From positions 1 through 27,595 of the IMG/VR virus record IMGVR_UViG_3300038825_000244: 27,595 nt of DNA. One strand, 5' to 3'. Positions 2,016 through 20,400 of the stretch are shown here, piece after piece. Position 1 is the first letter of the stretch. Every line of letters begins with the position of its first letter. A program made the translations under genes and the position numbers. A model generated the notes under the pieces. That model searched no databases. It saw nothing but the letters and a program-made list of their open reading frames with translations, and was not told where the DNA came from. This stretch comes from a virus.

Positions 2016-2128
2016 TTCTTCTTTTTTTCCTTTTTCTTTTTACCAAAGATTTTATCCCAATTATCATCAATCTTTTTCTTATCTTCTTTACGTCTTTTAG
2101 ACCCCTTACCACCATGCCACTTAGACAT
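2012..2128 (-). CDS. Small basic phage protein, 38 aa (KWHGGKG type)
   Basis: A 38-residue lysine-rich peptide, MSKWHGGKGSKRRKED, then DDNWDKIFGK and a poly-lysine tail. Small proteins with the same layout, W-H-G-G-K-G at the start and NWDKIFGKK at the end, recur in T7-like and marine phages with no assigned role. It overlaps the upstream gene by 8 nt and the downstream GTG start by 4 nt, so it is a link in a translationally coupled chain. Confidence 0.75.
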   Translation of the reverse strand: MSKWHGGKGSKRRKEDKKKIDDNWDKIFGKKKKEKKKK

Positions 2129-2615
2129 AATCAACCTTCTGTATATTAACTGACTTATCTAATTTGCTTAGTAATTCTTTAGCTCTCATAAAATCACTGG
2201 GGATGCATCTAAATAATTCCTCAATACTAAATATCATTATATCCTTCTCATCTTTGTGTATTTTCTCCAGTATAGGTTTGTCAGAATCAGTATCACAAAC
2301 CAGTGCTGTTTTATTATCAAAGTTAAAACACTTGGCACTGGGTTGTATTTGCATGTAACCACTTTCCTCACATTTGATATTTAACTGCTCATAAGCTCTT
2401 AACATCATTTCAGCCATCTTAAGTTGCTTTTGTTTAGAATCATTAATCATAGAATCTTTTAACATTTGCTCTGCTCTACAAAACTTAATCTCAAACTTAA
2501 CACCAACAATCTTAAAGATGCGTTTACGATTACCCCACTTAACATAAGTCTCATTCTCATAAGTTCTTAAATCTTTTAATCTATCTTTTAATGTTTCATC
2601 TAAATATATTTTCAT
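2121..2615 (-). CDS. Hypothetical protein, 164 aa
   Basis: I do not recognise this protein. It is probably alpha-helical and soluble, beginning MKIYLDETLKDRLKDLRTY and ending LLSKLDKSVNIQKVDYV, with several separated Cys residues and no clear catalytic motif. An upstream in-frame ATG at 2630 has no ribosome binding site. The ATG at 2615 has AGGAAG at the right distance, so I start there. It is the first ordinary gene after the repeat block that follows the primase-helicase gene. Confidence 0.65.
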   Translation of the reverse strand: MKIYLDETLKDRLKDLRTYENETYVKWGNRKRIFKIVGVKFEIKFCRAEQMLKDSMINDSKQKQLKMAEMMLRAYEQLNIKCEESGYMQIQPSAKCFNFDNKTALVCDTDSDKPILEKIHKDEKDIMIFSIEELFRCIPSDFMRAKELLSKLDKSVNIQKVDYV

Positions 2616-2646
2616 AAACTTCCTTATCATTTAGAAGGGAAGTAAG

Positions 2647-2665
2647 GGAAGTATTACATACTTCC
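2647..2665. repeat. Perfect 7-bp inverted repeat
   Basis: GGAAGTA and TACTTCC flank a 5-nt centre (TTACA). The element lies between the direct-repeat block and the next gene. In RNA it would form a 7-bp stem without a following U-tract, so it is not a standard terminator. As DNA it could be a dimeric protein site, using the same GGAAGT core as the direct repeats. Confidence 0.5.
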
Positions 2666-2752
2666 TTCCCTTCCTTCCTTCATAATTGTTGATATTTGAC
2701 CAAAACTTCCTTCAAAACTTCCTACCAAACTTCCTTCAAACTTCCTTCTCAT
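2654..2752 (-). CDS. Candidate repeat-encoded peptide, 32 aa
   Basis: An open frame of 32 codons begins at the ATG that overlaps the primase-helicase stop (TAATG). It reads MRRKFEGSLVGSFEGSFGQ and ends REGSM. The Gly-Ser repeats are spelled by the 12-bp direct repeats, so the frame could be a by-product of a DNA-level repeat. Starting exactly at a coupled stop and having a repeat period divisible by three are the only arguments for translation. Confidence 0.35.
   Translation of the reverse strand: MRRKFEGSLVGSFEGSFGQISTIMKEGREGSM
2704..2745. repeat. Four short direct repeats, 11-12 bp period
   Basis: The heptamer AACTTCC (GGAAGTT on the minus strand) occurs at 2704, 2716, 2728 and 2739, mostly within a longer GGAAGTTT context. 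The spacing is 12, 12 and 11 bp, about one helical turn. The block lies directly after the primase-helicase gene. An iteron-like protein-binding site or replication origin is possible; a repeat in a small coding frame is the alternative. Confidence 0.6.
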
Positions 2753-4692
2753 TAGAACTCATCCTCAAAGTTTGGCTGTCTATTTTTGAATTTCATGTGC
2801 TGCCAGCCAAATTTATCATGCTTAAACACCTGTCCTTTTTCTTTTAAAGCATCTAAATGTTTACCAATATTATTGGCATTTATACTATCCCCAGCTTTGT
2901 TCTTTACAAATCCTTCTAAGTCACTAGGCGTTAAGAATTGGTCTTGGGGATTCTGATTATCTTTAATATAAGCAACAGTCTCTAATGCAGTTAAGGTTCT
3001 ATCTTGCATCATAGGTAGTTTATCTGTCCTCTTAGTCTTAAAATCAATTGTAGTCTCTTCTAAGAAGCCTGACGTTAGGTTCAAGCCTTCGCCAATAATC
3101 TCTACTTCTTTAAATACAAAGGACTTCTCAGACATTCCCTGACCATCTTTGTTTAAAGTCTGCTCAAAGGTCACAAACATTTGCTCTTCCAAAGTATCAC
3201 CTACAGCCTTATCTTCTCTATCTACCTTAAATTCATAATCTAAAGAAGCACCCATAACACTAGAACCTCTACCTCTATCTGAGTTTCCATGACCAGTATG
3301 ATGAACCAAACATACACAACACTTATAATGTGATATAAGTCCATCTAATTTATTAATAAAGTTACCAACATCCTCTGCACTGTTCTCATTACCTACAAAG
3401 TTTCTTTGGAACGTATCAATAACAATCATGCCTATCTCACCAACCTGTTGTGTAAGAGCTTCTATCTCTTCTTCTAACATCTTAAAGTCATCAGCATCAT
3501 TAACCCTGACAGCTCTATCTGATAGATATAAAGGTACGCCAGTTAAATCAAACATACCTTGTTGCCAAGCTGCTAACCTTCTTTTAACACCCCTTTGACC
3601 TTCACCACATACATACATAACTGGTTTAGAGAATGATTCATTGCCATAAAAGCTCTCACCCTTAGCAATAGCAGCAGCCATAGCTATAGCAATAAATGAC
3701 TTACCACTCTTAGGTTTACCAAAGATACACATTAATGATTCTTTTTCTACTACATCTCTTATTAACCAATCAGGATTATCTACCTGTTTTAATACTTCAT
3801 CAGCTCTAGTGAAAGTAACCATACCTTTTGGCTTCTTCTCTACACAACTGTTTATATAATCTTCTAAATCTTTAGACTCCTTAAAATCTCCTCTTACAAA
3901 TGCATCATATAAATCATCCTTCTCTTTAAAGTATGCTGGTGGTTGAGCTACCTTAACTTTACAACCATTCTTCTTGAGCATAGATGCGATTTCATTAGCA
4001 CACTTTAATCCTGCTTCATCATTATCAGGAAATACCCAAACCTCTCTACCAAAGATAGGACTCCAATCTGCCTTCTCCCAGCTATTAACACCACCATGCC
4101 AAGTACAACTATCTCCATCATATATTGCCTCACAACCCCTTAAGGCCTTCTCACCCTCGTTTAACAACAAAGGCTTGTCCTTAGCTTTGTCAGTGTAATA
4201 AATAGGTAATAAGCCTTCAGGACGTTTCATAGACCATGAACCATCTTGGTTTAAGCTAAAAGGTGCATACTTCTGTTTAATATAATGTCCTTCAGGAAAT
4301 CTTAATACCATAAAAGTATCAGAGTACTTGACCTTCACAACAGCGTTCTTGTAAAGGTCAATCATTTGTTCCCTAGAGAATGACCTAGCATTACTTTTCT
4401 GTTTGATAGTAGGGGTACTATCAACAGTGATTAAGGAGTCATTAGAATATAATGCTAAGTCATGACCAAACTGTTTTAAAACTGTATTCACATCTTGATT
4501 CATGTGTTTAATTAAATCTATGATGCCACCACCAGTATCATGCTCAAAGCTATACCAAGTGCCTGACTCTAAATTTAATGTTAATGACCCATGAGTCCCC
4601 CATCTAAGTTCTTTAGATGAGGAGCTACTAGGTTCTCCAAGAAGTTGCTTTGCAACATCAGGAGCTATTCTTTGCCAATCTACTGACTGCAT
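2752..4692 (-). CDS. Primase-helicase: Toprim plus RepA-like RecA/AAA ATPase
   Basis: A 646-residue replication enzyme. Residues 1-80 resemble a primase N-terminal domain without an obvious zinc finger. A Toprim-like region follows (E179 in LLLNEGE, D223 and D225 in FPDNDEAG), expected to hold the metal for primer synthesis or to act in regulation. From about residue 300 comes a RepA/AAA_25-type ATPase: Walker A GKPKSGKS at 325-332, Walker B MIVIDT with D426, then LVHHTGHG near 463-469 and GRGSSVMGA. The C-terminal 80 residues look like a winged helix. It should unwind the phage origin and may prime synthesis. It follows the SSB-like gene, with a shared base at the junction. No DNA polymerase is visible nearby, so the host enzyme is probably used. 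Confidence 0.9.
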   Translation of the reverse strand: MQSVDWQRIAPDVAKQLLGEPSSSSSKELRWGTHGSLTLNLESGTWYSFEHDTGGGIIDLIKHMNQDVNTVLKQFGHDLALYSNDSLITVDSTPTIKQKSNARSFSREQMIDLYKNAVVKVKYSDTFMVLRFPEGHYIKQKYAPFSLNQDGSWSMKRPEGLLPIYYTDKAKDKPLLLNEGEKALRGCEAIYDGDSCTWHGGVNSWEKADWSPIFGREVWVFPDNDEAGLKCANEIASMLKKNGCKVKVAQPPAYFKEKDDLYDAFVRGDFKESKDLEDYINSCVEKKPKGMVTFTRADEVLKQVDNPDWLIRDVVEKESLMCIFGKPKSGKSFIAIAMAAAIAKGESFYGNESFSKPVMYVCGEGQRGVKRRLAAWQQGMFDLTGVPLYLSDRAVRVNDADDFKMLEEEIEALTQQVGEIGMIVIDTFQRNFVGNENSAEDVGNFINKLDGLISHYKCCVCLVHHTGHGNSDRGRGSSVMGASLDYEFKVDREDKAVGDTLEEQMFVTFEQTLNKDGQGMSEKSFVFKEVEIIGEGLNLTSGFLEETTIDFKTKRTDKLPMMQDRTLTALETVAYIKDNQNPQDQFLTPSDLEGFVKNKAGDSINANNIGKHLDALKEKGQVFKHDKFGWQHMKFKNRQPNFEDEF

Positions 4693-5327
4693 CAGAATGG
4701 TATATCGTCATCAGATAATTCATTCTTATCAACCATCTCTTGCACTTTATCTGCAAGACCATCATTAGGACTTTTAAATGTGTCCTCTACTGGTGCTTCT
4801 TGGTCTATATACCATTGAGGTATTACAAATCCATCAGCTCTTGGTGCAAACTTAGCAAAACTAAATGATAGCTCTGAAGAGTTACCCATACCAACCTGTA
4901 TTGGCTTAGAGCCTTCATACTTCACTACAGGTAAGTTAGATGAACTTGCATCCATTTGATTCCAAAAGCCACCTAGTATGCTGTTAAAAGCACTAGATTC
5001 AGCATAAGTAAATCTTTGCCATAGATAAGCATGTTGTGCTCCTTGTGGCATTACCCAAGCACTGAAGGCTCTTTTGTAATCATCTGCTGGTTTAGGATTA
5101 ACTACACCAAATTTATCATCCCAAGTATATTCAAATCCATCAGCTTTAGTATATCTACCCCATCCTGATTTGAATGTTGCAGGGTCAAGCTGTAGATATT
5201 GAAAATCTACTGGTGTTTCACCATTAGCAAAGAACTGCTGATGGGAAGTTTTGAAAGCAAGATAAACTTGCTGACTCTCATTGGAACTACTCATTCCACC
5301 TAATATATCCATAATATATTTCTCCAT
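4692..5327 (-). CDS. Probable single-stranded DNA-binding protein
   Basis: A 211-residue protein ending in an acidic tail, NELSDDDIPF. This matches the DDDIPF tip by which bacterial SSB recruits replication and repair proteins. The body, with many aromatic residues, fits a beta-rich DNA-binding domain, although I cannot confirm an OB fold by eye. Its place between a resolvase-like nuclease and the primase-helicase supports a replication or recombination role. The first ATG overlaps the upstream stop (TAATG). A second ATG at 5312 is placed 9 nt after GGAG and could be the main start. Confidence 0.78.
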   Translation of the reverse strand: MEKYIMDILGGMSSSNESQQVYLAFKTSHQQFFANGETPVDFQYLQLDPATFKSGWGRYTKADGFEYTWDDKFGVVNPKPADDYKRAFSAWVMPQGAQHAYLWQRFTYAESSAFNSILGGFWNQMDASSSNLPVVKYEGSKPIQVGMGNSSELSFSFAKFAPRADGFVIPQWYIDQEAPVEDTFKSPNDGLADKVQEMVDKNELSDDDIPF

Positions 5328-5536
5328 TAATGTATTGTTTTATCAATACTGTTTAAGTAATCAGCTTCAAGTTGGGTATAGCACCTTTCCTTAAAACTGT
5401 AATAATCCTCATCATTGACTATGCCAAATACGTCACAAGCAATGCTGATTCTTTCGTAGGCTTTCCTACAAAACTCTTCAAAATCCTCTTGAAGCAAATA
5501 ACTATTTAAATCCATTTGCTTTTTGTAAGATTTCAT
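5327..5536 (-). CDS. Hypothetical protein, 69 aa
   Basis: I do not recognise this small acidic, helical protein (LLQEDFEEFCRKAYERI, then NDEDYYSFKERCY). It overlaps the end of the nuclease gene by 35 nt and its stop overlaps the start of the SSB-like gene (TAATG). The ATG at 5536 has no clear ribosome binding site; the in-frame ATG at 5515 would give 62 residues and has none either, so the start is uncertain. Confidence 0.6.
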   Translation of the reverse strand: MKSYKKQMDLNSYLLQEDFEEFCRKAYERISIACDVFGIVNDEDYYSFKERCYTQLEADYLNSIDKTIH

Positions 5537-5924
5537 CTAAATTTTCACATATTTCTGATAGTGGGCAGAGGTAAGTACATTCCCAATTTGGCGTATCAAC
5601 TGACGTAACCAAGAACAAGGGAATCACACACATTATTTGCTTCCTATCATATTTATAAATTAGTATAGGAATTAGGTTGTCACCAGCACTCTCAACTGCT
5701 TGTTTCCACCATTCATTCTTATACATTGATTTCTTAGCACTAGCTTTATATCTTTTACATTCGATTGCGAACTTATCAAAATATATGTCAGCCATGCCTT
5801 TTGTTTGATACTGGTCAAGGTTTCTTTTAACCCTAGTATCAATACCTTTAGATTCAAGGACAGTATTAAGTTTGTTACATATAACTCTCTCAAATGCTGC
5901 TCCTTTGTTTCTACTGTTTACCAT
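5502..5924 (-). CDS. PD-(D/E)XK nuclease, Holliday junction resolvase-like
   Basis: A 140-residue protein. E12 (NKGAAFERVI), D46 (GMADIYF) and E55-C-K57 (FAIECKRYK) form a clear PD-(D/E)XK active site. WWKQAVESAG and IPILIYKYDRKQIMCVI follow, as in small Hjc-like resolvases and related phage nucleases. In this setting, before the SSB-like protein and primase-helicase, it could resolve branched intermediates from replication or recombination before packaging. The ATG overlaps the stop of an upstream membrane peptide gene (TAATG). Confidence 0.8.
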   Translation of the reverse strand: MVNSRNKGAAFERVICNKLNTVLESKGIDTRVKRNLDQYQTKGMADIYFDKFAIECKRYKASAKKSMYKNEWWKQAVESAGDNLIPILIYKYDRKQIMCVIPLFLVTSVDTPNWECTYLCPLSEICENLDEILQKANGFK

Positions 5925-6031
5925 TAATCTAGCTTATTAAGTATGTAAATTGCAGCTACTACACTTATTATTGTAGCTATTGCTAACAACCCAACAAAGC
6001 CACCCAATATATATAGAATCCAGTCAAGCAT
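5924..6031 (-). CDS. Single-span membrane peptide, 35 aa
   Basis: A 35-residue peptide read by hand. Residues 3-32 are almost entirely hydrophobic (ILYILGGFVGLLAIATIIS, then VVAAIYIL), ending NKLD. It is expected to lie in the inner membrane with a single helix. AAGGA lies 9 nt before the ATG, inside the upstream gene, and the stop overlaps the nuclease start (TAATG). Function unknown. Confidence 0.65.
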   Translation of the reverse strand: MLDWILYILGGFVGLLAIATIISVVAAIYILNKLD

Positions 6032-6188
6032 TAAAATCAGTCCTTACAACCCTTCCACTTTGGTATTGTATTTCTCTGTAATGACTACCAGCTCCCTTTT
6101 GAAAATAGTAATAAGCAATCTGCTTATCTAACTTTTCAGCCTTTAACTCTTCTCTTCTCTTAGCTACTGCTTTGCTATTTTGACCCAT
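6024..6188 (-). CDS. Hypothetical protein, 54 aa
   Basis: A 54-residue basic protein read by hand: a charged helical N-terminus (AVAKRREELKAEKLDKQ), then an aromatic patch IAYYYFQKGAGSHY. I do not recognise a family. A GAGAAG element precedes the ATG, which comes 1 nt after the stop of the ribbon-helix-helix gene. The gene overlaps the downstream membrane peptide gene by 8 nt. The coding call rests mainly on this tight packing. Confidence 0.6.
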   Translation of the reverse strand: MGQNSKAVAKRREELKAEKLDKQIAYYYFQKGAGSHYREIQYQSGRVVRTDFNA

Positions 6189-6189
6189 G

Positions 6190-6339
6190 TTACTTCTCTG
6201 ACTTATAAGAACACATACCTAGCTTCAGCAATAGCTGAGTAGCTGATTCAATGTTCATATTGTTTACAATTGCGAACACCTTAATTTCCTTATGTAGTTC
6301 TTCAGGAATCCAAAGTGCTTTTTTAGTTTTATCGTCCAT
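6190..6339 (-). CDS. Ribbon-helix-helix (Arc/CopG-like) regulator candidate
   Basis: A 49-residue protein. KKALWIPEELHKEIK fits the beta strand and first helix of ribbon-helix-helix DNA-binding proteins, and NNMNIESATQLLLKLG fits the second helix. Such proteins bind operators as dimers and usually repress transcription. A strong ribosome binding site (AAGGAGAG) precedes the ATG. The gene begins a new block after a 130-bp, very AT-rich gap downstream of the methyltransferase gene, so it could control its own block or its neighbours; the operator is not identified. Confidence 0.7.
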   Translation of the reverse strand: MDDKTKKALWIPEELHKEIKVFAIVNNMNIESATQLLLKLGMCSYKSEK

Positions 6340-6364
6340 TTAACTCTCCTTTTTTATATTAATA

Positions 6365-6451
6365 TTAATTTAAGATTTTTACCACTTCTTTTGTGTTTAT
6401 ATCCGTTTCATGCCCTATAATCTTGTTAAGGGCAATTGATAAACTCTCCAT
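6365..6451 (-). CDS. Candidate peptide ORF, 28 aa
   Basis: A 28-codon frame, MESLSIALNKIIGHETD then INTKEVVKIL, lies in the gap between the methyltransferase and ribbon-helix-helix genes. GAGAG elements lie upstream but not at ideal spacing. It is reported because the gap is otherwise empty and the sequence has a plausible helical composition. The gap may instead be untranslated leader or promoter DNA. Confidence 0.3.
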   Translation of the reverse strand: MESLSIALNKIIGHETDINTKEVVKILN

Positions 6452-6471
6452 ACTCTAAATACTCTCATTAT

Positions 6472-7605
6472 CTATTTGCCCTTACTTATATCCATATTCT
6501 TTAAAATATGAGTTATAACTTCAATCGTCCAACCATTACCTAACATCTTGTATCTCTGAGTATTTGATACATGATTTGTGTAGTTGTCAGGAACTGTTTG
6601 TAATCTTTCACATTCTAGAGGTGTAAGTTTTCTCCAGTGAACACTGTCATTTATTTTTACCGGTTCTTTTCCACCACCACTATTACCTGCCATTAATGTA
6701 GGTGACTTTCCTTCAGGAGAATAAACTCTACTACTTGAATGACTTGGATTATTTAATTGTATGATTCCGTTTGCTGATGGTTGTGGATTCTCTTTTAATG
6801 TTTCTTTAAATTTATTTATTCTATCTTCAGAAAATACAGGAATCATAGACCTTTGCTTTTTTTCTATACTATTCCATGCAACAGCACCATTATAAGAAGC
6901 TGTAAGAGCAAACGCCTTACCTTCTTTAGTTGTCATCTTTGATAAGTTTTTATCAAAATCTTTTAATTTTATATTTGGTATTGAGCCACCACCTGAATTA
7001 GCTCTTATGGTTACTGATTTATTAAAATGCTCTCTTGGTTTTTTCTCACCAAACCCACCATAAATATTTGAATACATTGGCTCTTCTGCATCATTTTCCA
7101 ATATATCTCTTAAAACTATACCTCTTTGTTCAGGTTGTTCTATTTCAGGAATGTTAGTCCAATAATATCTAACTCTATTCTGTGCTGATACTAATGCTGA
7201 ATTAATCATTATTGGCTCAACACCCATGTATTCAGATATGACATCTAAATATTCTTTCTTCATTCTTACATTTTCTAATAAAAAATATTTTGGTTTTAGT
7301 TCTTCTACACATCTAACAAACTCAAAGAACAATGCACTTCTAGGGTCATTAAACGCTAATTGTTTACCAGCAAAACTAAACCCTTGACACGGACTCCCAC
7401 CCATAATTAAATCAATCTTTGGTAGTGTAGATGTATCTAATTCAGTTACATCGCCAACTTGTATAATGTCAGGGTAATTTGCTTGACTCACTTGAATAGC
7501 ATATTTATCTATCTCACTTGCATAATAATTATCTACTGGTATGCCAAGACGTTCTAAAGCAATCATGCCACAACTCATTCCGTCAAATAAACTTAATACA
7601 TTCAT
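6472..7605 (-). CDS. C5-cytosine DNA methyltransferase
   Basis: A 377-residue enzyme that transfers methyl groups from S-adenosylmethionine to cytosine C5. Motif I is LFDGMSCG (residues 6-13). Motif IV is GGSPCQGFS with the catalytic Cys at 73. Motif VI is ENV at 111-113. Motif VIII is QNRVR at 142-146. Motif X is MLGNGWTIEVI near 354-364. Residues of about 170-320 hold the target-recognition region, so the recognised sequence cannot be read off. The short motif I to IV spacing recalls Dnmt3-like phage enzymes. No partner restriction enzyme of a known type lies next to it, so it is probably an orphan that protects phage DNA or marks it for regulation. It lies 9 nt downstream of the exonuclease gene. 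Confidence 0.93.
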   Translation of the reverse strand: MNVLSLFDGMSCGMIALERLGIPVDNYYASEIDKYAIQVSQANYPDIIQVGDVTELDTSTLPKIDLIMGGSPCQGFSFAGKQLAFNDPRSALFFEFVRCVEELKPKYFLLENVRMKKEYLDVISEYMGVEPIMINSALVSAQNRVRYYWTNIPEIEQPEQRGIVLRDILENDAEEPMYSNIYGGFGEKKPREHFNKSVTIRANSGGGSIPNIKLKDFDKNLSKMTTKEGKAFALTASYNGAVAWNSIEKKQRSMIPVFSEDRINKFKETLKENPQPSANGIIQLNNPSHSSSRVYSPEGKSPTLMAGNSGGGKEPVKINDSVHWRKLTPLECERLQTVPDNYTNHVSNTQRYKMLGNGWTIEVITHILKNMDISKGK

Positions 7606-8968: not shown

Positions 8969-9186
8969 TACTTACTCCCTTCTAAATAAGCATCTACTAT
9001 TCTTTCAAAGAACTTAGAAGACCATTGTGTGTAAAATACTGATTTCAATAACTCATAATGCTCACCTTTTTTTCTTATTAGAGCATCATGGAATTTAGGA
9101 TTCTGATTAACAACCTTAGCTAATCTTTTTACATAGTCAGCTTTGGTTGTTTGATTTCCTCTACCTCTTTTTCCTACTCCTATCAT
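8968..9186 (-). CDS. Hypothetical protein, 72 aa
   Basis: A 72-residue basic protein beginning MIGVGKRGRGNQTTKADYVKR, with helices through the rest (FFERIVDAYLEGSK). The glycine- and arginine-rich start could contact DNA, but no family is recognised. Both its start and its stop lie in copies of the same junction sequence, so it is coupled to the genes on both sides. Confidence 0.7.
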   Translation of the reverse strand: MIGVGKRGRGNQTTKADYVKRLAKVVNQNPKFHDALIRKKGEHYELLKSVFYTQWSSKFFERIVDAYLEGSK

Positions 9187-9332
9187 TACTTACTCCCCAT
9201 AGTTAATTGAACTTCATGTCCTTGCTTGATTAATCTTGCCTTTTTTTTTCTCATGACTGTTAAGTCGCTAGTCTTAGTTGCTAGTGCCCAACCAAAGTTA
9301 GGCACGTTTACTTTTAGTGTGTATCTAGTCAT
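9186..9332 (-). CDS. Hypothetical protein, 48 aa
   Basis: A 48-residue basic protein read by hand: MTRYTLKVNVPNFGWALATK, a cluster RKKKARLIKQ, and the end VQLTMGSK. The alternating start suggests a small beta sheet followed by a helix; no family is recognised. Start and stop both sit in copies of the junction sequence (TAATG overlaps). Confidence 0.65.
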   Translation of the reverse strand: MTRYTLKVNVPNFGWALATKTSDLTVMRKKKARLIKQGHEVQLTMGSK

Positions 9333-9511
9333 TACTTACTCCAAACACCAGCAATTGCTTGTTGGAATTTAGGGCATTTAAAAACTTTTAACATTTGCTT
9401 ATAGTTTGCAATTGCTTCGTTAATGTCTGAGTCTCTGTACTCAACACCATTTGCTTTATGCTCTTCAGCAACAGCTAACCAGTTCTCGTATTTTTTTATT
9501 ACTTTATCCAT
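9332..9511 (-). CDS. Hypothetical protein, 59 aa
   Basis: A 59-residue helical protein, MDKVIKKYENWLAVAEEH, then DINEAIANYKQMLKVF and an end in VWSK. I do not recognise it. The frame is open to 9556, but the ATG at 9511 has AAGGAG 9 nt away and lies at the end of the leader of the promoter at 9548-9577; starting at 9556 would put translation inside that leader. Confidence 0.7.
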   Translation of the reverse strand: MDKVIKKYENWLAVAEEHKANGVEYRDSDINEAIANYKQMLKVFKCPKFQQAIAGVWSK

Positions 9512-9547
9512 GTTATTTAACTCCTTAATTTTATTTAACATACACTC

Positions 9548-9577
9548 ATTATACATAAATATATATAAATGTGTAAA
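9548..9577 (-). promoter_or_regulatory. Sigma70-type promoter P2 and leader
   Basis: The -35 TTTACA (9572-9577) and a perfect -10 TATAAT (9548-9553) are separated by 18 bp of AT-rich DNA. From -10 to the ATG at 9511 there are 36 nt, ending AAGGAGTTAAATAACATG. The same leader end and the same 36-nt distance occur at promoter P1, so the two are probably copies of one module. It should drive the early genes from 9511 on. Confidence 0.72.
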
Positions 9578-9588
9578 AAAATATTAAT

Positions 9589-9912
9589 TTATTTTTCTAG
9601 GGTATCTATCTCAGCCTTGCACTCTTTCATAGTATTGCAAGTGATGCTGTTGACCCTCATAGATAAGATAAGACTTTGTATTTGCTCATTAATCTTTCTG
9701 TTGTGTTCATGGTCTTGCTCAGTGTAAGTACACTCAGAACAGAAGCACTCATTACCATGAAAAGGTCTAGTTATCTTCTGCTTCTCTAACTCCCCTCTTT
9801 TATTAAGAAAATCCTCTTGTGGTTTAGCAGTCCATAGTGTCATCCTGCCATTCTCATCAAAGTCCTTCTCTATCTTGTAGCCTTTGTATTTATATGCTTT
9901 ATCCCATCTCAT
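9589..9912 (-). CDS. Hypothetical early protein, 107 aa
   Basis: The first gene after promoter P1. It starts MRWDKAYKYKGYKIEKDFD and has three cysteines and a histidine in GNECFCSECTYTEQDH, which could bind zinc, followed by a helical C-terminus with one more Cys pair separated by five residues. I do not recognise a family. Its ribosome binding site AAGGAG lies 9 nt from the ATG, in the leader shared with P2. First position in the early region is often held by host-takeover proteins; that is inference. Confidence 0.7.
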   Translation of the reverse strand: MRWDKAYKYKGYKIEKDFDENGRMTLWTAKPQEDFLNKRGELEKQKITRPFHGNECFCSECTYTEQDHEHNRKINEQIQSLILSMRVNSITCNTMKECKAEIDTLEK

Positions 9913-12047: not shown

Positions 12048-15000
12048 TTATTCTCCTTTAAGTAGGTTAATTTCAGATTGTAAGGCTTCAATTTGTATTT
12101 GTTGTTCTTGTATAGCTTTGACTAGTAATGGTGTTATTCTTCCATAGTCCATACCTTGCATTTCTTCAGCATCTTTTTCACCTGTTACAGCATCACTAAA
12201 TATTTCTTGTACTTCGTGAGCTATAAAGCCTTCTGAAGTCTCTCCTGAATTTTTCCAATCAAATTGTACAGGGTTAAGTTGCTGTAATCTTGTTAAACCA
12301 TTTTGTATTGGTGCTACATTTTCTTTTAATCTGTAGTCTGAAGATGTGTTGTATTGTGTAGCATTGTTTCCTGTTGAGGTTATAGAACCTACTGTAGTTG
12401 CACTACCACCTGACCTAAAGAGTATTTGATTACAAGTTCCACCTGCATTATTCCACATATCTATTGAATAGAATGATGCACCACCTACTGTATTTAGTGC
12501 CAACGTATTTCCTCGTTGACCATTATTAAAACTAAAAACTTCTCCTGCTGTTAGTTGAGCAGACGTACATCCAAATCTTGTGTCCCCACTGGCTTCTATT
12601 CTCATGCGTTCTGAGCCATTAGTGTTGAACCACATATCGTGAGTAGTAACACCAATTTTATTATGTGCAGATGTACTATTTACATCACCAATAGTTATAT
12701 AAGCATTTGCATCTGTAGAAGTAAATCTAGCCAAACCATCATCAGCAGATGCAACATCTAGTATAAAAGCTGGACTTGTTTTTCCAATTCCAACCGAGCC
12801 TGCAGAATTAATTCTCATTTTTTCAGAGCCATTTATATGCCAAGTATGTGCTGCTGATGCACTACCTGTTCCAATATCGTGAACATTTACAAAATCAGAA
12901 GCTAAGTACCAATTATGTGCTTGAGCACCTGCTGTTAAAGTAATTCCACCTGTGTTATTTTCTGCACCATCAATATGGAGTTTTGAAATAGGACTAGTCG
13001 TTCCAATTCCAACCCTTGAATTAACACCATCAAAAGTGGCTATTGTACTTTGTTTTCCATTACCGATATGTAAGTTTCTAAACTGAGTATTCCCATCTTG
13101 ATACCCACGAAAATTTATGTAACCATCTGAAGTTTCGTTTCTACCATAATTAAAGTTAAAAGCATTTTGAGCAGCTACATAAACTCCATAACCACTACCA
13201 TCATCAATAATAAAATTTGCTCCACTTGTTGCACCCTCTACATGAAGTTTACCTGAAGGACTAGTCGTTCCAATTCCAACATTGCCACCTCTAAGATTCA
13301 TAGTTTCTGTTGTACCAGCAATAAATCTCATTCTGCCACCTTCACCAGCAGAAGATGCAAATTGAGTTATGCTTCCATAATTAATATCACCACTATCTCC
13401 TAAATTTAAAATAGCACCATGACTTGTAGTTCCTGCTTGAATTGACATGGTGGTATAATCAGAATCTAAAATATGAAGTTTTGTTGAAGGACTAGTCGTT
13501 CCAATTCCAACCAAACCAGCACTTGTAATTCTCATGGCTTCACTCATAGCTCCAACAGAAGATGTGCTGAAAGTTAAGTAACTACTTCTGCTATTACCTG
13601 ATGTACCACTTAAAATAGTAGAAATAGTGTTATCAGTATTATTACCCCAATGTATTGCACCTAGATTATCTGTGGTGTTGTTGTTATTTACCTGAAGGAA
13701 TAATTCTGCTCCATTTGAGTTTGTTTCTCCTCTTACGTGTAAAGTACCACTTGGGTTGTCTATTCCTATGCCCACCAATCCAGCAGATGTAATTCTAAGG
13801 CGTTCTGTGCCACCAGTTGCAAAACCAATTACATCACCACCTGAAGGTGGAAACATTCCTGTATTTGTATCAGTGGCAAAGCGAAAAGCTGGAGCTGCTT
13901 CTGTACCATCGCCTGTAATTCTATCGTTACTTGTAACAGCACCACTAGTTATAGTACCTGTAATATTAATATCACCAGTGCCTGTTATATCGCTTGAATT
14001 TAAGTCTAAATTCCCACCTAATTGTGGAGTTGTATCTTCAACAACATTGTTTATAGAAATAGCTTGTACTCTAGCATCAGTGTAATAAAGGTTAGAGCCT
14101 TCTGATAAATCACTTGTAGACTTGCCACCAAATGCAGAATCAAATCTTGTAGAAGTATAGTAAAGATTGCTAGTGCCTTCAGATACATCATCAGTATCTT
14201 TACTTGCTAGTCTTGTATCAAATCTAGCATCAGTATAATAAAGATTAGTACCCTCTGATAAATCACTTGTAGACTTAGCAGTAAAGGCTGAATCAAATCT
14301 TGCTTGAGTATAGTAAAGGTTACTGCCTTCAGTTAAATCATCAGTGTCATGATTAGATAGACTAGAGACAGTTCCAGTAACATTACCTGTTAAGTTACCC
14401 TCAACATTAACCACTAAAGTTCCTAGTGAGTTAAGTGTTATGTTTCCTGTAGCACTACCATCTGCTGTAGTAAGACCCATTGTAAATTTATCAACTGATT
14501 CATCCCACATAAAGATACTATTATCAGCAGTACCTCTATTAATAAGCATACCTGAGTCATTGACAGGACTTCCTGTAAGACCTGCATTAAGTTGGAATAG
14601 GTTATCTTCTATATCTAAATTGGTTGTGTCTAAAGACGTTAGAGTTCCATTTACTGTTAGATTACCTGCAACTGTTAAGCTATCTGCAATTTGTACATCA
14701 TCAGGTAATGATAATGTTACGTCTGCTGATTCACTACCACTACCTGACACTGTAATCTTGTTAGCAGTTCCTGTTACTGTTGCAACATAGTTGCCTACTG
14801 TATCAGTACCCAATGCAACTGAATTAGCAGCTACAGTATTTGCTTGTATTCCTAATGCATCAACAAATGCTTTAGTTACTCTTGCATCTATAGCTGAATT
14901 TGCTCTTGTATCTGTATAGTATAAATTTGTGTTTTCAGTTAAGTCAGCAGTTGTCTTATTACCAAAAGCAGAATCAAATCTAGTAGTTGTGTAATAAAGG

Positions 15001-16532
15001 TTAGTAGTTCCTTCACTTAAATCATCTGTATCTTTAGATGTAAAAGCAGAATCAAATCTAGCTGATGTGTAATATAAATTAGTTCCTTCTGCTAAATCAG
15101 AAGTAGACTTGGTTGCAAGTCTAGTATCAAAATCTGTATTTGTTCTTGATGTTGTGTAATAAAGGTTAGTAGTTCCTTCTGATACATCATCTGTATCTTT
15201 AGTGGCTAGTCTAGTATCAAATGCAGAATTTACTCTTGCATCTGTATAGTAAAGATTAGAGCCTTCAGATAAGTCACCTGTATCTTTAGTAGCTAACCTA
15301 GTATCAAAATCTGTATTAACCCTAGCTGTTGTGTAATATAAATTGCTACCTTCAGTTAAGTCTCCAGTATCTTTAGTAGCTAATCTTGAATCAAAATCTG
15401 TATTTGCTCTAGCAGTTGTATAGTAAAGGTTAGTATTTTCAACAACAATAGAAGTATCTAAAGTTGCAGTAGTTGATTGATTAGAACCATTACCTATAAA
15501 TATCTTGCCATTATCTAAGTTAGGAGTGGCGTTACTTCTTCCAGCACCACCTACTTTAATAGAACCATTAACAGCATGACTTCTTAACACTTTACCTATG
15601 TTTTGTATTTGTGATGATTCTCCAGTTGGAGCTGTTGTGGAATATTCACCTGCTGTTGTAGATACATAAAGTATTTCACCAACTGATTCATTTGAAGTAT
15701 CAACATTAATTAAGTTACCCAGTGTAACTATTTGCAAATTAGTATTAGCATTAGCATCTTCAGCAGCTATACCAAATGCAGGCATTTTAGAAGCATCATC
15801 AGCTTTTGCTTTGCCTACTGTTGGAGTGTTTCCTGATACTCCTGATACATAAATAATATCTCCCTTAGAGAGTGCTTCATCAGCTTTTGCACTAAATCTT
15901 ACAGCACCATCAATATCTCCAACAAATTCATCAGTAGCAGTAACTAAATTAAATGTGACATTATCAGTAGTAGCTACAGATTGACCTATAGCAATACTAG
16001 GGGTAGAACCTTCTCCAGTTCCACCTGTTACTGTTACACCAGTACCACCTGACATAGATTCAACATAATCACCAGTTGTATCAGTTCCTAAAGTAATAGA
16101 GTTAATTTGCACAACTGTGTCTATATCAACATTAGTACTACCATCAAAAGATACTGAACCCACTACATCACCTGATAAAGATATGGTTCTAGCTGTAGTT
16201 AATATATCAGCAGAATCTGCATTACCTGTTAAGTCTCCAGTAACATTACCTGTAACATTACCTGTTAAGTTACCAGTAACATTTCCTGTTAAATCGCCTG
16301 TGAATGTATTAGATGCAGTAATACTAACACCTGTAGTAATCCAAGCATTGTCAGCAGAGTTTCTAATCTTTAATACACTGCTAGATGTATCTACCCATAA
16401 TTGATGAGCAAATGTAGTTGATGGTTCTGTTGCTCCACTATTAACAGTTGCAATAGCTAAAAGAGCATTGTTTAAATCTGCTCTAAAGTCTGCACCTGAT
16501 TGGTTCGCTATGTTGTAATCGTGTTGTGCCAT
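12048..16532 (-). CDS. Repeat-rich tail fibre with peptidase S74 chaperone domain
   Basis: A 1494-residue fibre protein. The N-terminus (residues 1-90) probably attaches to the tail. A Gly-Asn-Val-Thr stretch (LTGNVTGNVTGD) leads to a shaft with 11 copies of an NLYYT(T/D)AR motif. The second half has VGIGTTSPS...LHV blocks, typical of trimeric beta-structured fibres. The last 97 residues are an intramolecular chaperone of the S74 type: SDYRLKENV with Ser1398 and Lys1403 as the expected self-cleavage dyad, then FIAHEVQEIF and a C-terminal coiled coil. It should trimerise, fold, cut off its chaperone and bind the host surface. AGGA precedes the ATG at 8 nt. Confidence 0.9.
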   Translation of the reverse strand: MAQHDYNIANQSGADFRADLNNALLAIATVNSGATEPSTTFAHQLWVDTSSSVLKIRNSADNAWITTGVSITASNTFTGDLTGNVTGNLTGNVTGNVTGDLTGNADSADILTTARTISLSGDVVGSVSFDGSTNVDIDTVVQINSITLGTDTTGDYVESMSGGTGVTVTGGTGEGSTPSIAIGQSVATTDNVTFNLVTATDEFVGDIDGAVRFSAKADEALSKGDIIYVSGVSGNTPTVGKAKADDASKMPAFGIAAEDANANTNLQIVTLGNLINVDTSNESVGEILYVSTTAGEYSTTAPTGESSQIQNIGKVLRSHAVNGSIKVGGAGRSNATPNLDNGKIFIGNGSNQSTTATLDTSIVVENTNLYYTTARANTDFDSRLATKDTGDLTEGSNLYYTTARVNTDFDTRLATKDTGDLSEGSNLYYTDARVNSAFDTRLATKDTDDVSEGTTNLYYTTSRTNTDFDTRLATKSTSDLAEGTNLYYTSARFDSAFTSKDTDDLSEGTTNLYYTTTRFDSAFGNKTTADLTENTNLYYTDTRANSAIDARVTKAFVDALGIQANTVAANSVALGTDTVGNYVATVTGTANKITVSGSGSESADVTLSLPDDVQIADSLTVAGNLTVNGTLTSLDTTNLDIEDNLFQLNAGLTGSPVNDSGMLINRGTADNSIFMWDESVDKFTMGLTTADGSATGNITLNSLGTLVVNVEGNLTGNVTGTVSSLSNHDTDDLTEGSNLYYTQARFDSAFTAKSTSDLSEGTNLYYTDARFDTRLASKDTDDVSEGTSNLYYTSTRFDSAFGGKSTSDLSEGSNLYYTDARVQAISINNVVEDTTPQLGGNLDLNSSDITGTGDINITGTITSGAVTSNDRITGDGTEAAPAFRFATDTNTGMFPPSGGDVIGFATGGTERLRITSAGLVGIGIDNPSGTLHVRGETNSNGAELFLQVNNNNTTDNLGAIHWGNNTDNTISTILSGTSGNSRSSYLTFSTSSVGAMSEAMRITSAGLVGIGTTSPSTKLHILDSDYTTMSIQAGTTSHGAILNLGDSGDINYGSITQFASSAGEGGRMRFIAGTTETMNLRGGNVGIGTTSPSGKLHVEGATSGANFIIDDGSGYGVYVAAQNAFNFNYGRNETSDGYINFRGYQDGNTQFRNLHIGNGKQSTIATFDGVNSRVGIGTTSPISKLHIDGAENNTGGITLTAGAQAHNWYLASDFVNVHDIGTGSASAAHTWHINGSEKMRINSAGSVGIGKTSPAFILDVASADDGLARFTSTDANAYITIGDVNSTSAHNKIGVTTHDMWFNTNGSERMRIEASGDTRFGCTSAQLTAGEVFSFNNGQRGNTLALNTVGGASFYSIDMWNNAGGTCNQILFRSGGSATTVGSITSTGNNATQYNTSSDYRLKENVAPIQNGLTRLQQLNPVQFDWKNSGETSEGFIAHEVQEIFSDAVTGEKDAEEMQGMDYGRITPLLVKAIQEQQIQIEALQSEINLLKGE
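12991..13511 (-). repeat. Three exact 23-nt repeats in the fibre gene
   Basis: An identical 23-nt sequence occurs at 12991-13013, 13258-13280 and 13489-13511. It encodes Val-Gly-Ile-Gly-Thr-Thr-Ser-Pro in the distal shaft. Nearby related blocks (for example near 12775) differ at several bases, so exact identity at these three goes beyond protein similarity and suggests recent duplication or gene conversion. Confidence 0.8.
14050..15440 (-). repeat. Degenerate NLYYT repeats in the fibre shaft
   Basis: Eleven copies of a unit of about 25-29 residues share E-G-(S/T)-N-L-Y-Y-T-x-(A/S/T)-R, then F-D and K-(D/S)-T. Seven are nearly contiguous (about 14.9-15.44 kb) and four lie nearer the C-terminus (about 14.05-14.34 kb), with a different 550-bp segment between them. 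At DNA level they are similar but not identical. They probably form a repetitive trimeric shaft whose copy number sets fibre length. Confidence 0.85.
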
Positions 16533-16561: not shown

Positions 16562-16930
16562 TCATTCAGGGATAGTTGGAAATATCACATCAGCAATATT
16601 ATCAGTTGCTTGTTCTGTAAATGGTAAATCCCTTAATTCCTGTCTATATGTTGCCCATTCTTGTTTCTTAGAATCAGATAAAGGACAGTCATTTACTTGA
16701 GTCCAATCTGATTCATTTAGTAATTCGTTTCTTTTATTTCTTAATATCTCTAATACATTATCAGTTCTTTGTATTGCTTCACCATTAACAATCTTATAAT
16801 CATTAGGCTGATAATCTCCCTCAATAATTCCCTGTCCTTCTGATAGTCCTACTTCATTTATTTCTGCAACAGTAGAGGTTGAATGCTCTATTTCTCCTGT
16901 TTCTAAATTGTATATAGTAAATATGTTCAT
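16562..16930 (-). CDS. Tail fibre assembly/chaperone-like protein (Phage_tail_APC)
   Basis: A 122-residue protein. The C-terminal half, RNKRNELLNESDWTQVND and then WATYRQELRDLP, is the signature of the Phage_tail_APC family of tail assembly chaperone-like proteins that accompany fibre genes. The first 60 residues (MNIFTIYNLETGEIEHST) are variable in the family. It may help fold or attach the fibre encoded next. Its ATG overlaps the tip protein stop (TAATG). Confidence 0.8.
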   Translation of the reverse strand: MNIFTIYNLETGEIEHSTSTVAEINEVGLSEGQGIIEGDYQPNDYKIVNGEAIQRTDNVLEILRNKRNELLNESDWTQVNDCPLSDSKKQEWATYRQELRDLPFTEQATDNIADVIFPTIPE

Positions 16931-19900
16931 TATCTTGTGTTATCCATCATTACATTAAGTGAAAGCTGAGTGTGATTATATCCACCTGAGAAATATACTC
17001 TCCAATAAACAGTAGATTGAGATGTAGATAATGTGGTTATCTGACCTGTATAAACATAAGTATATCCCCTATAAGTTCCAGCACTCCAAGATATATTTGT
17101 ATTACCACTTGCATTGACCCAAGTAGAATTATTTAAAGAATATTGAACCCTTCCACCACTTACATCACCAAGCACTCCTGAGAATATAGCAACATAACCA
17201 GCATTGTCTCTAACCTGAGTAATTGTTACTGGTACAAAAGAAGCATTACTACCTGTATATGGTGATGTTCTTTGCACATAAGTTTGACCATCTCTAGCTA
17301 GTGGGAATTTAGTTCCTGCTGTTAAATGACTAACAATAGTAGAGCTTACATTATCAAAGCTCTTAACATTTAAAGTATCAACATTAATTCTTGCTGAATC
17401 TAATTGGTCTGTTGTTATCTTGGTGGCTGATATGCTTTGTACTTTATCGTTGGTAACAGCATTACTAGCTATCTGAGTTGTATCTACTCCACCTGATTTA
17501 ATAATTAAATTACCACTTCCATCAGTATCAATAGTGACATTATCTATTTGTATTCTATTAGCGTTTAAAGTTCCTGCTGATACATTATCTGCATTAATGT
17601 TAGTTACATTAACTACTGAAGCATTAATAGTTCCAGTAGTAATTACATTGCCTGATATAGAAGTAACATTAGTATTTACTTGAGTTCCATTTATAAAAGA
17701 AGAATCGTTAGTTAGTGTAGAAATATTATCTCCACTTACAATAATACTTCCTGCTGTTATAACTCCTGATACATCTATTCTTGCTGCTGCTACAGTTCCT
17801 GTAGTAATAGCACCACCTGATATAGAAGTAACATTAGTATTTACTTGAGTTCCATTTATAAAAGAAGAATCGTTAGTTAAGTCTGATATATTATCTCCAG
17901 TAACAATAATATTTCCTGTAGCGATAATATCTGAAACATTAAGTCTTGCAGTATTTACAGTACCTGTTGTTATAACCCCACCTGATATAGAAGTAACATT
18001 AGTATTTACTTGAGTTCCATTTATAAAAGCAGAATCATTAGTTAAGTCTGATATATTATCTCCAGTAACAATAATATTTCCTGTAGCGATAATATCTGAA
18101 ACATTAAGTCTAGCTGTAGCTAAAGTACCTGAAGTAATATTGGTTGCGTTTAAGTTAGTAACTGTAATAACTGAAGCATCTATAGTTCCTGCTGTAATTT
18201 TATTAGCTGTTATAGAATTTATCTTTGCATCAGTAACATTTCCATCTAATATTTTATTTGTAACAATAGCATCATCTTTAATATCAGGAGTGCCTGTTGG
18301 AGCATCACCAATAGTAAAGGTTAAAGTAGCGGCAGATGATTCAGAGCCTAATGTATTAAGTGAGGTAACACTTGCAACATAGTTAGCATCAACAGGTAAA
18401 AAGTTTAAATCACAATTAGTAACATCAACAATAGTATTTTTAACTTGATTGCTTGAACCATCAACTATATTAACTCTATATTGATAATCAGGAAAATCTG
18501 TTGGTTCATTCCAAGATAAGAATGGTCTGCCTGTAGAACTAGAATCAGTATCAGTAAATGATAATCCTGCTGGAGCTTTAACTGCATAAGCAGAAGGTAA
18601 GTTAGATAACTCCTCTACTGGTTCTTGAGGTGGCACTTCCCATGTATAAACATCAAAGTATTCTATTAAGCTAACTGCAACCAATCCATTTGGTTGTAAT
18701 TCTAACGCCTCTACTCTACAAACTTTTCCTGAAAATCCTAAACCTGCATAAGTTAAATCTACTATATCTCCAACATTTAATTTATACATCTCAGGAGTTC
18801 CTAAGAACTGCATGGTGGTCTGATTTCTACTTCTAGTTAAGATTGCCTTACCCATGTTGTAGGCTATGTAGGGGTCGCTTATATAAGGGAACTCAGCTTT
18901 TATTTCTAATATCTCATCACCATCATCTGAATAATATTCAGGCGTTGCATCATGTAAAACAGTAGCTGTATCTAATTCATATTTTTTATTAGCATTAAAA
19001 AATTCAACTATTACCTTATTAGCTTTTTTATCTTTATTTCCATAATCAACTGATATACCAGCATCAGCAATAATATGATTGTCATTTATACTAAATGTAG
19101 ATGACCCTGTATCTTCTATTGATAATTCATACTTACCATCTATATAAAGAAAGATACCACGCATATTTGCAAGTAATTCTTTTGCATTATCCATAACATT
19201 TTTATTAGCATCTAAATAACCATTACAATGAAATCTTTTTACTTTAACTAAAGATGAGCCTGTTTGTGAAGAATATGTTGAGCCTAATGTGTCATTTATA
19301 TAAACAATATATTCATCATTTTGGTCATAGAATCCATTTCTCTGAACATCTTTAATTTCTTTGCCATCTACAATAAGATTCCCATTTGCATCATTGATAT
19401 CTACTACTTCCCCAACTTTGTTTTGCCACCAATTAGTGTTAGGGTCAGTTCCACCAATAGTTATAAAGTCATCTCCAGCATTTCCTGACCAAGTAAGAGA
19501 TTGTGCTGAGCCATTAAAGTAAGGTTGGTCAACTTCTGTATCACAAACATTAGCAGCAGCAGTAAATGTGCTCATGTTTATTTGTGACTGAGTTAAACCC
19601 TTACCATAATCATTATTGGTTATGTAATCTAAAAAGGTTAAAGCTGGATTATCTGAGTATTCATAAGTAGATACAGTTCCAAAGGTTTGATTTGTGTCTC
19701 TTGGGTCAAACACTTTTTTACCTCTAACCTGAACTGTTAGTTGAGGTACTCCTGACCATATGCCCTCTTTATCATAGCCATAATGAGCTGCTATATAACA
19801 AACACCATTTAGTTTGTGTGCAGAAGTCCAATTAGGCATAGAAGCTACAAGCATAGGGTCTGCTGTTTGTGTTGCAGCTCCGTGATGTAGATTCATAACA

Positions 19901-20400
19901 TATCTATATTTTTGTGTAGGACTAGAGCCAAAACCACCAGCACCAGCATCTATACCAGTACCATTTTGTGAAACTGTATTTAGTGAACCTGAACCTGAAG
20001 ATATTTTATCTGAACCTATATAGCCACCATCTCTAAATCTTGCTGAGTCTCTTAAAGAATTACCATCAAGCTCAATTGTTGTTCCAAGTATTTCATCACA
20101 TTCGCCAACTGATAAGGCATAAACTACATATAAGTCCCTTGAGTCATTAGCAGAAACATCCATGTAAATTATTTGAGCACCTACTCTTCTAGTGCCGTAT
20201 ATAACAGGTATCTTACCTCCAGCAGAAGTCTTATTAGCCATAATGACCTGACCTTGTGCCTGCATGTCTTTAGCTTGTCTATAACCTTTTACTCCAACTG
20301 CCAAAGTAGCAAGTGTTACAGTCCAAGAAACAACAGTGGCTATGGTTGCTGCTGTTGTAGCTCCAATTCCTAAAAATGTTAAAAATGCAGTTAAACTCAT
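16930..20400 (-). CDS. Tail tip / host specificity protein (lambda J-like)
   Basis: An 1156-residue protein. Residues 1-45 contain a hydrophobic segment. The tip core follows, with GGKIPVIYGTRRVG near 60-75 and YGYDKEGIWSGVPQLTVQVRG near 210-230, as in phage tail proteins of the J/TipJ group. A fibronectin type III-like domain lies near 615-700. Three 55-residue repeats and related NATNITSGTL blocks follow to about residue 1000, and the last 130 residues form an Asn-, Ser- and Tyr-rich end domain. It should sit at the tail tip and contact the host or anchor the fibre. TAATG overlaps link it to the genes on both sides. Confidence 0.85.
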   Translation of the reverse strand: MSLTAFLTFLGIGATTAATIATVVSWTVTLATLAVGVKGYRQAKDMQAQGQVIMANKTSAGGKIPVIYGTRRVGAQIIYMDVSANDSRDLYVVYALSVGECDEILGTTIELDGNSLRDSARFRDGGYIGSDKISSGSGSLNTVSQNGTGIDAGAGGFGSSPTQKYRYVMNLHHGAATQTADPMLVASMPNWTSAHKLNGVCYIAAHYGYDKEGIWSGVPQLTVQVRGKKVFDPRDTNQTFGTVSTYEYSDNPALTFLDYITNNDYGKGLTQSQINMSTFTAAANVCDTEVDQPYFNGSAQSLTWSGNAGDDFITIGGTDPNTNWWQNKVGEVVDINDANGNLIVDGKEIKDVQRNGFYDQNDEYIVYINDTLGSTYSSQTGSSLVKVKRFHCNGYLDANKNVMDNAKELLANMRGIFLYIDGKYELSIEDTGSSTFSINDNHIIADAGISVDYGNKDKKANKVIVEFFNANKKYELDTATVLHDATPEYYSDDGDEILEIKAEFPYISDPYIAYNMGKAILTRSRNQTTMQFLGTPEMYKLNVGDIVDLTYAGLGFSGKVCRVEALELQPNGLVAVSLIEYFDVYTWEVPPQEPVEELSNLPSAYAVKAPAGLSFTDTDSSSTGRPFLSWNEPTDFPDYQYRVNIVDGSSNQVKNTIVDVTNCDLNFLPVDANYVASVTSLNTLGSESSAATLTFTIGDAPTGTPDIKDDAIVTNKILDGNVTDAKINSITANKITAGTIDASVITVTNLNATNITSGTLATARLNVSDIIATGNIIVTGDNISDLTNDSAFINGTQVNTNVTSISGGVITTGTVNTARLNVSDIIATGNIIVTGDNISDLTNDSSFINGTQVNTNVTSISGGAITTGTVAAARIDVSGVITAGSIIVSGDNISTLTNDSSFINGTQVNTNVTSISGNVITTGTINASVVNVTNINADNVSAGTLNANRIQIDNVTIDTDGSGNLIIKSGGVDTTQIASNAVTNDKVQSISATKITTDQLDSARINVDTLNVKSFDNVSSTIVSHLTAGTKFPLARDGQTYVQRTSPYTGSNASFVPVTITQVRDNAGYVAIFSGVLGDVSGGRVQYSLNNSTWVNASGNTNISWSAGTYRGYTYVYTGQITTLSTSQSTVYWRVYFSGGYNHTQLSLNVMMDNTR
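17636..18130 (-). repeat. Three tandem 165-bp repeats in the tip protein gene
   Basis: A 165-bp unit occurs three times. A marker segment begins at 17654, 17819 and 17984, exactly 165 bp apart. Each unit encodes 55 residues including SGDNIS or TGDNIS, then LTNDS(A/S)FINGTQVNTNV and TSISG. The copies at 17801-17965 and 17966-18130 are almost identical; the one nearest the C-terminus differs more. The period is a multiple of three, so copy number can change without loss of frame. Confidence 0.88.

Follow-up and report, generated by a model that had tools for sequence, protein, structure and literature searches.

Positions 2626–2750 of the window (the whole stretch of DNA analyzed, 27,595 nucleotides, corresponding to bases 1–27595 of a 32,983-base virus record) probably constitute a phage replication-initiation site composed of iterons and a hairpin, which would be bound by the predicted winged helix fused to the adjacent primase-helicase. 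The arrangement, its conservation, the turnover of the repeated word, the covariation of the C-terminal domain and of the hairpin, and the predicted winged-helix fold were computed here. An origin had been one of the readings offered in the initial annotation; it is backed by the layout, the conservation, and the covariation of the word with the predicted winged helix, and from these we infer origin activity. GC skew, suggested there as a check, was monotone in all five records of 33–35 kb with no turn at the site, and neither supports nor refutes an origin.

Organization of the Repeat Block

The genes flanking the repeat block are all located on the minus strand, and the element, which lies in the gap of 2631–2751 that separates the helicase stop from the following ORF in the list, sits within what looks like a single operon (Table 1). 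Four GGAAGTT-type repeats had been described in the initial annotation, and the four copies of GGAAGTTT were confirmed at that place with spacings of 12, 12, and 11 bp. Tandem Repeats Finder reported the array at 2701–2748 with a period of 12 and a score of 75. The window contains eight copies of GGAAGTTT against 1.03 expected, a number reached in none of 100 shuffles, and five of the eight fall at 2616–2745. An A/T-rich spacer is present beside the repeats, and an A-rich spacer also recurs in relatives; the block thus shows one feature of iteron origins, namely, several short direct repeats in phase (four copies), and the spacer would be a candidate unwinding region.

For the downstream gene, which gave no PHROG or Pfam match, relatives suggest the ATG start given in Table 1 over the listed one at 2630, and the AAGGAAG ahead of this ATG serves both as a ribosome-binding site and as a fifth GGAAGTTT. 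The replication region of the window also carries a C-5 cytosine DNA methyltransferase gene (6472–7605; Pfam DNA_methylase, 1.8e-50). Tandem repeats of 75, 87, and 165 bp at 14079–14340, 15120–15433, and 17629–18139 sit inside the large ORFs 12048–16532 and 16930–20400.

Table 1. Position of the block elements and neighboring genes in the window.
Feature	Position	Strand	Remark
Iteron 1, GGAAGTTT	2738..2745	-	
Iteron 2, GGAAGTTT	2727..2734	-	
Iteron 3, GGAAGTTT	2715..2722	-	
Iteron 4, GGAAGTTT	2703..2710	-	
A/T-rich spacer, CAAATATCAACAATTAT	2682..2698	-	Proposed unwinding element
Outer stem 5' arm, ATCA	2690..2693	-	Compensatory changes across 39 hairpins
Middle helix 5' arm, GAAGGGAA	2666..2673	-	
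Apical stem 5' arm, GGAAGTAT	2658..2665	-	
Apical stem 3' arm, ATACTTCC	2647..2654	-	Loop GTA at 2655-2657
Middle helix 3' arm, TTCCCTTC	2634..2641	-	
Outer stem 3' arm, TGAT	2626..2629	-	Compensatory changes across 39 hairpins
Primase-helicase gene, 646 aa	2752..4692	-	TOPRIM primase part, RepA/DnaB-like ATPase, and C-terminal winged helix (predicted); proposed initiator
C-terminal domain, aa 553-646	2755..3036	-	Predicted winged helix; proposed word reader
Third helix, aa 606-618	2839..2877	-	Predicted; putative recognition helix (DSSP)
Downstream gene, 169 aa ORF	2121..2630	-	Start likelier ATG at 2613-2615
32-residue open frame from TAATG	2654..2752	-	Judged a by-product of the repeats

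Conservation of the Arrangement and Turnover of the Word

Relatives were collected from IMG/VR with the window helicase (best 80 of 99 confirmed relatives kept), and further scans with the helicases of L063 and L055 and with alignment A1 (best 80 of 410 confirmed relatives fetched) extended the fetched loci up to L185. Of the resulting 185 sequences (184 loci and the window), six were dropped because they end less than 150 bp after the helicase stop, leaving 179, and a further 61 because a retained sequence matches them exactly over 550 bp, leaving 118 distinct loci. L017, L056, and L073 were omitted from one of the locus comparisons. A genome-contig scan with the window helicase confirmed no host or prophage copies. 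One contig of 65,678 bp (IMGVR_UViG_3300050343_000089) carries the helicase and the element twice, nearly identical and ∼33.9 kb apart (L094 and L095), i.e., two genome lengths in one contig, as an assembly artefact or a concatemer.

The array, the A/T-rich spacer, and the hairpin were found in all 118 distinct loci. The array follows the helicase stop directly in 115 of these and lies behind an intervening gene in three (L172, L173, and L174), in which array, spacer, and hairpin are intact behind a methyltransferase gene and just ahead of the usual downstream gene. Since the element remains intact after inserted methyltransferase genes, the block is a separate unit and not a mere tail of the helicase gene. 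Pfam identified the intervening genes as Dam methyltransferase (L172:4878–5324 and L173:4884–5336) and MT-A70 (L174:4898–5404); the 3' ends of the two Dam genes overlap the first repeats.

The word itself is replaced wholesale between lineages, and the hairpin arms follow it. We drew 14 word classes, some of which grade into each other: AGGAAGTTT (23 loci), GGTTTGG (16), CAGGGAATT (13), AGTGTGTGT (12), GAGGGAAGT (12), TTGGGTGT (11), TCGGAAGTG (6), CGGAATT (5), GTGGGGTAA (5), TTAGGTGT (5), AGTGTGTAA (4), ACTCTGCC (3), GAGTTAGTT (2), and a variant confined to L012 (1). Conservation of the repeat spacing, which the initial annotation had named as a check on its reading, was borne out, as among the 270 core-to-core spacings of the 83 distinct elements, 212 measure 10–13 bp. 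Repetition of 6-mers exceeded all 30 shuffles in 78 of the 83, and the element's own repetition score was attained by 35 of 1978 control windows taken at these loci. Each of the five records of 33–35 kb contains one word cluster. G-quadruplex repeats were considered and dropped on inspection, the array of the AGTGTGTGT class having no GG runs.

The hairpin DNA alone was also used as query against IMG/VR. Three hairpin patterns retrieved 88 stretches with one copy each, and the C-terminal domain was encoded upstream in all 84 contigs with at least 400 bp of upstream sequence, many of them already known from the helicase scans; no orphan element lacking the helicase was found in these 84 testable contigs with the three patterns.

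A Hairpin Built From the Same Word

The initial annotation had noted a 7-bp inverted repeat on the repeat core. An inverted repeat made of the GGAAG core is indeed present, but it is larger, comprising an apical stem of 8 bp, a further helix of equal length, and a short outer stem, which form an interrupted hairpin of ∼70 nt built from the same word as the iterons. In each class displayed, the stem consists of the class's own word. The DNA fold of 2625–2685 has an energy of -13.1 kcal/mol (z -4.6). Among the relatives, 80 of 83 distinct hairpins fold below all 15 shuffles, with a median z of -4.5, the identical window search having been applied to the shuffles.

Covariation was evaluated in an alignment of 39 hairpins, drawn from 50 distinct segments with at most four per class. 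In the outer stem, 85.1% of the cells are paired compared with 66.1% in shuffles and 17–35% in slid controls, and 30 cells are altered on both sides; this pattern is equally expected from the half-sites of a two-fold protein site, and a cruciform is not proven by it. Pair 10–77 is T-A in 21, A-T in 16, and C-G in 2 hairpins, and pair 11–76 is C-G in 33, G-C in 4, and T-A in 2, both without a break. Pair 8–79 is unpaired in 25 of the 39 hairpins. Two of five covariation measures were not above shuffles, namely, both-side-changed pairs (48/500) and further pair types (224/500). RNAalifold added six pairs, each showing compensatory change, at a consensus energy of only -1.15 kcal/mol.

The apical loops of 3–4 nt contain TA in 73 of the 83 distinct elements, i.e., in all classes except GGTTTGG; TA is common in A/T-rich DNA. 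There is a hint here that the loop TA might serve as a primase start site.

The C-Terminal Domain Tracks the Word

Among the 118 distinct loci, 107 have a helicase ORF of at least 600 aa and 106 of these also have the downstream ORF; 64 loci were left after removal of those within 5% of each other, and 60 have a class-mate. Word k-mer distances, which are independent of the 14 classes, were compared with the distances of each protein part by partial Mantel (rank) correlation over the 64 non-redundant loci. The C-terminal domain gave the highest partial correlation, 0.446 (0/500 permutations), followed by the N-terminal part with 0.247 (0/500), the linker with 0.098 (7/500), and the ATPase with 0.005 (226/500). 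A reader in the downstream gene was rejected, its partial correlation being not positive (-0.121, 491/500; -0.03 in a second analysis). One-nearest-neighbor prediction of the word class was correct in 60/60 cases with the C-terminal domain, 58/60 with the ATPase, 56/60 with the linker, 48/60 with the downstream gene, and 41/60 with the N-terminal (primase) part. On addition of the upstream ssDNA-binding-type gene (available in 54 of the 64 loci), this gene predicted 32/51 compared with 51/51 for the C-terminal domain, and the partial correlations were 0.446 for the C-terminal domain, 0.343 for the N-terminal part, 0.088 (5/300) for the ATPase, and -0.241 for the upstream gene, which was likewise rejected as the reader. 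The word therefore covaries with the C-terminal domain more closely than with the primase part or the downstream gene, and the ATPase is nearly as good a predictor.

Pairwise comparisons pointed in the same direction. At an ATPase identity of at least 85%, identity of the C-terminal domain averages 68% in 153 same-word pairs versus 41% in 93 different-word pairs. As far as residue 520, the window and CAGGGAATT-type helicases share 74–97% identity in most bins (56% at 81–120); identity falls to 41% at 561–600 and 31% at 601–640. L031 is a natural mixture: its ATPase is 94% identical to that of L018 (word TCGGAAGTG) and 85% to that of the window, its C-terminal domain, in contrast, is closer to the window (67%) than to L018 (48%), and it carries the word of the window, AGGAAGTTT. 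For the TTGGGTGT and GGTTTGG classes, replacement extends to the ATPase part, and the first 240 residues are 67–95% identical to the window. L012 and L113 share a downstream gene of 97% identity and differ in their words, with ATPase and C-terminus 35 and 26% identical, respectively.

The putative recognition helix (aa 606–618) varies between word classes. Of the 30 columns most associated with the word, 16 are in 561–632, three of them in this helix, but nine lie at aa 472–524, in the ATPase part and outside the winged helix, which speaks against a pure winged-helix reading. Also counter to it, a partial correlation (0.25 and 0.34 in the two analyses) persists for the N-terminal part as well, and L063 and L094 carry related words (AGTGTGTGT and AGTGTGTAA) with C-termini only 30% identical. 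Taken as a whole, the sequence comparisons suggest that the word would be read by the winged helix of the primase-helicase.

Domain Structure of the Primase-Helicase

The protein matched Pfam AAA_25 (7e-36) and Toprim_2 (22.9 bits, just over the cut-off of 22.1), and the A2 profile matched RSF1010 RepA (1g8y, E 3.9e-10) and a DNA primase (5guj, E 0.0087). Its AlphaFold2 model has a pLDDT of 82.6, and the best structural match of the ATPase was again RSF1010 RepA (Z 23.5 over 233 residues, 2.9 A). For the C-terminal domain, the model projected helices at 561–577, 589–592, and 606–618 followed by a strand pair at 622–632; modeled alone, the domain reached a pLDDT of 87.1. Most of the 50 VIA-align matches listed for it (Z 7.3 to 9.3) are DNA-binding proteins of the winged-helix type, including Fur/Nur, LexA, MntR, and Z-alpha, and the domain is accordingly predicted to be a winged helix. 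Foldseek gave no match to the C-terminal domain with E <0.001 (best 0.025). No match named P4 alpha or RepC was among the 50 VIA-align matches listed, which excludes nothing.

Other Explanations for the Element

The block could be an accessory cis site like P4 crr, to which the initiator binds and which replication requires, the start itself being located elsewhere. In the P4 record NC_001609, repeats likewise stand just after the alpha gene (crr repeats 4291–4590; alpha gene 4636–6969, minus strand) while the annotated origin is distal (9086–9809). However, P4 has two repeat clusters, the second of the same repeats at its origin, whereas the five records scanned here have one cluster each, and this cluster is accompanied by a hairpin, no comparable annotated one being seen at crr in the P4 record. 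An accessory role is, hence, considered unlikely.

Still less probable is an operator, at which the primase-helicase or another protein would bind the repeats and control downstream transcription. The position of the element in the intergenic gap ahead of the next gene would suit such a role, and winged helices are often transcription regulators; however, promoter-like matches in 2400–3000 are at chance level (3 versus 2.1 in shuffles) with none in the array, and the word does not track the downstream gene. Moreover, a plain operator array needs no covarying outer stem, although a two-fold operator could have one.

That the hairpin acts in mRNA, as an attenuator, a processing site, or a terminator after the helicase gene, appears very improbable. 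It does lie on the coding strand inside the apparent operon, but no terminator-like site was found, Rfam gave six matches to unrelated families, all below gathering scores, and the RNA fold over the whole block (2625–2755) reached a z-score of only -1.6. An mRNA element also leaves unexplained the direct repeats at helical spacing and their covariation with the predicted winged helix.

Finally, the initial annotation had read a Glu/Val-Gly-Ser-Leu/Phe peptide in the repeats; the TAATG overlap and the 32-residue frame that it opens do exist, but a functional peptide was not borne out and is hardly credible, since a frame of at least 25 residues is kept only in the window haplotype, i.e., in one of 10 distinct same-word elements (7–21 residues in the others), and other word classes encode unrelated peptides or none. 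Some frame of at least 25 residues from any start codon is present in 30 of 74 distinct elements across all classes; these encode different word-derived peptides, and three of the 30 are the inserted methyltransferase genes.

Analogous Arrays in Distant Phages and Cultured Roseophages

To return to the proposed initiation site, in all, 11 of 20 records from more distant phages showed an analogous array behind the homologous gene. Sixteen records were picked from 924 tblastn matches and the 300 bp following the homologous gene were scored; seven of them, every one with a word of its own, scored above 100 shuffles and above every control window, namely, Roseobacter CRP-406, Alteromonas XX1924, Idiomarinaceae 1N2-2, Verrucomicrobia P8625, Salicola CGphi29, Wolbachia WO, and EBPR siphovirus 5. 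The roseophages CRP-811, CRP-821, CRP-823, and CRP-831, added for a match to the window's capsid protein, all carry arrays by the same measure. CRP-811 and CRP-823 share the word TTTGTAGT, CRP-821 and CRP-831 share TTTATACAA, and the C-termini of the two pairs differ in line with the words. The nine records with no clear array were ct76p945, Evaa, KayaCho, BFK20, Mahdia, CTH7, Vibrio 1244, Mae-JY30, and Pepe25, the last being above shuffles but not above controls (four of 52 controls equal it). In most of these array-less records the match was confined to the ATPase, and their replication proteins may thus be built differently.

Judged by the major capsid protein (CRP-811, 61%), the CRP-822-type roseophages are the nearest relatives in culture, and in five of seven isolates examined a word array and hairpin follow the primase-helicase. 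The main text of the paper on these phages contains no "repeat," "iteron," or "primase," and its single match to "origin" concerns auxiliary genes (PMC12629253). No paper on this element was found in the open-access PMC literature. The element thus provides both an uncultured group of marine phages and the cultured roseophages, whose origins are not described in that main text, with a concrete origin candidate.

Proposed Mechanism and Possible Exchange of the Cassette

In the proposed mechanism, modeled on P4 and RSF1010 (PMC4234260), the four direct repeats, positioned one helical turn apart on one face of the DNA, would be the binding site of the C-terminal winged helix. Binding to the repeats would load the RepA-like ATPase ring, and the A/T-rich spacer would melt. 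One strand could then fold into the hairpin, the stem of which would re-create the word as a duplex on single-stranded DNA, and the primase part would start a primer on this hairpin, possibly in the apical loop.

The lineages may carry different, internally matched words because the site and its putative reader are neighbors that are inherited and exchanged together. More speculatively, and as a tentative proposal, the winged helix and the word (iterons plus hairpin stem) might form an exchangeable lock-and-key cassette that changes or swaps as a unit and yields many mutually incompatible origins within a single family of marine phages and, independently of it, in distant phages; the hairpin might re-display the word on the displaced strand so that the same domain reloads the primase-helicase, with the apical loop as primer start, and the turnover may stem from attack on the origin (as with PLE and Odn) or from competition between co-infecting phages. 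The data suggest that origin specificity in phages may turn over by large-scale cassette exchange, which bears on superinfection, satellites, and origin-directed defense, and the matched series of words and predicted winged helices in related proteins would be useful for learning a winged-helix recognition code.

Comparison With Known Replication Systems

New here are the fusion of a RepA-like helicase to the primase and the putative reader, the repetition of the word in the hairpin, and the scale of word turnover. Parts of the arrangement have counterparts in known systems. The iteron words of the IncQ plasmid RSF1010 are about 20 bp apart; those here are closer, at 11–12 bp. In oriV of RSF1010, the iterons are followed by the stem-loops ssiA and ssiB as primer starts, and three separate proteins, RepA, RepB', and RepC, are employed (PMC4234260), whereas here the counterparts of the RepA helicase, the RepC iteron binder, and the RepB' primase would all be parts of one ORF (2752–4692). 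The RepA-type helicase is common to both (E 3.9e-10, Z 23.5; hexamer putative), and the conserved hairpin found here would be a candidate for primer start sites of the ssi type.

The ATPase of the present protein is RepA/DnaB-like (AAA_25, with RSF1010 RepA as the best structural match), unlike the helicase of P4 alpha, which is of superfamily 3. P4 alpha is similar in that one protein combines a TOPRIM-type primase, a helicase, and a winged helix that binds short repeats (PMC4234260), and the initiator repeats stand directly after its gene. The crenarchaeal plasmid pRN1 (orf904) has its origin downstream of the replication gene, with a stem-loop kept despite sequence turnover, and a C-terminal winged helix (PMC4234260). 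A conserved stem-loop downstream of the replication gene despite turnover was likewise observed here; pRN1 differs in being without iterons and in having an archaeo-eukaryotic prim-pol with an SF3 helicase (PMC4234260), a combination absent from the present protein.

A tested precedent for exchange is the PLE satellite of Vibrio cholerae, in which the origin and the RepA_N DNA-binding domain covary and swap as a module, the ICP1 nuclease Odn, aimed at the iterons, being the proposed driver of this swapping (PMC8263062). In PLE, the iterons are semi-palindromic and ∼30 bp long, and two replicon types are swapped, compared with the 14 word classes and the word-built hairpin found here in phages.
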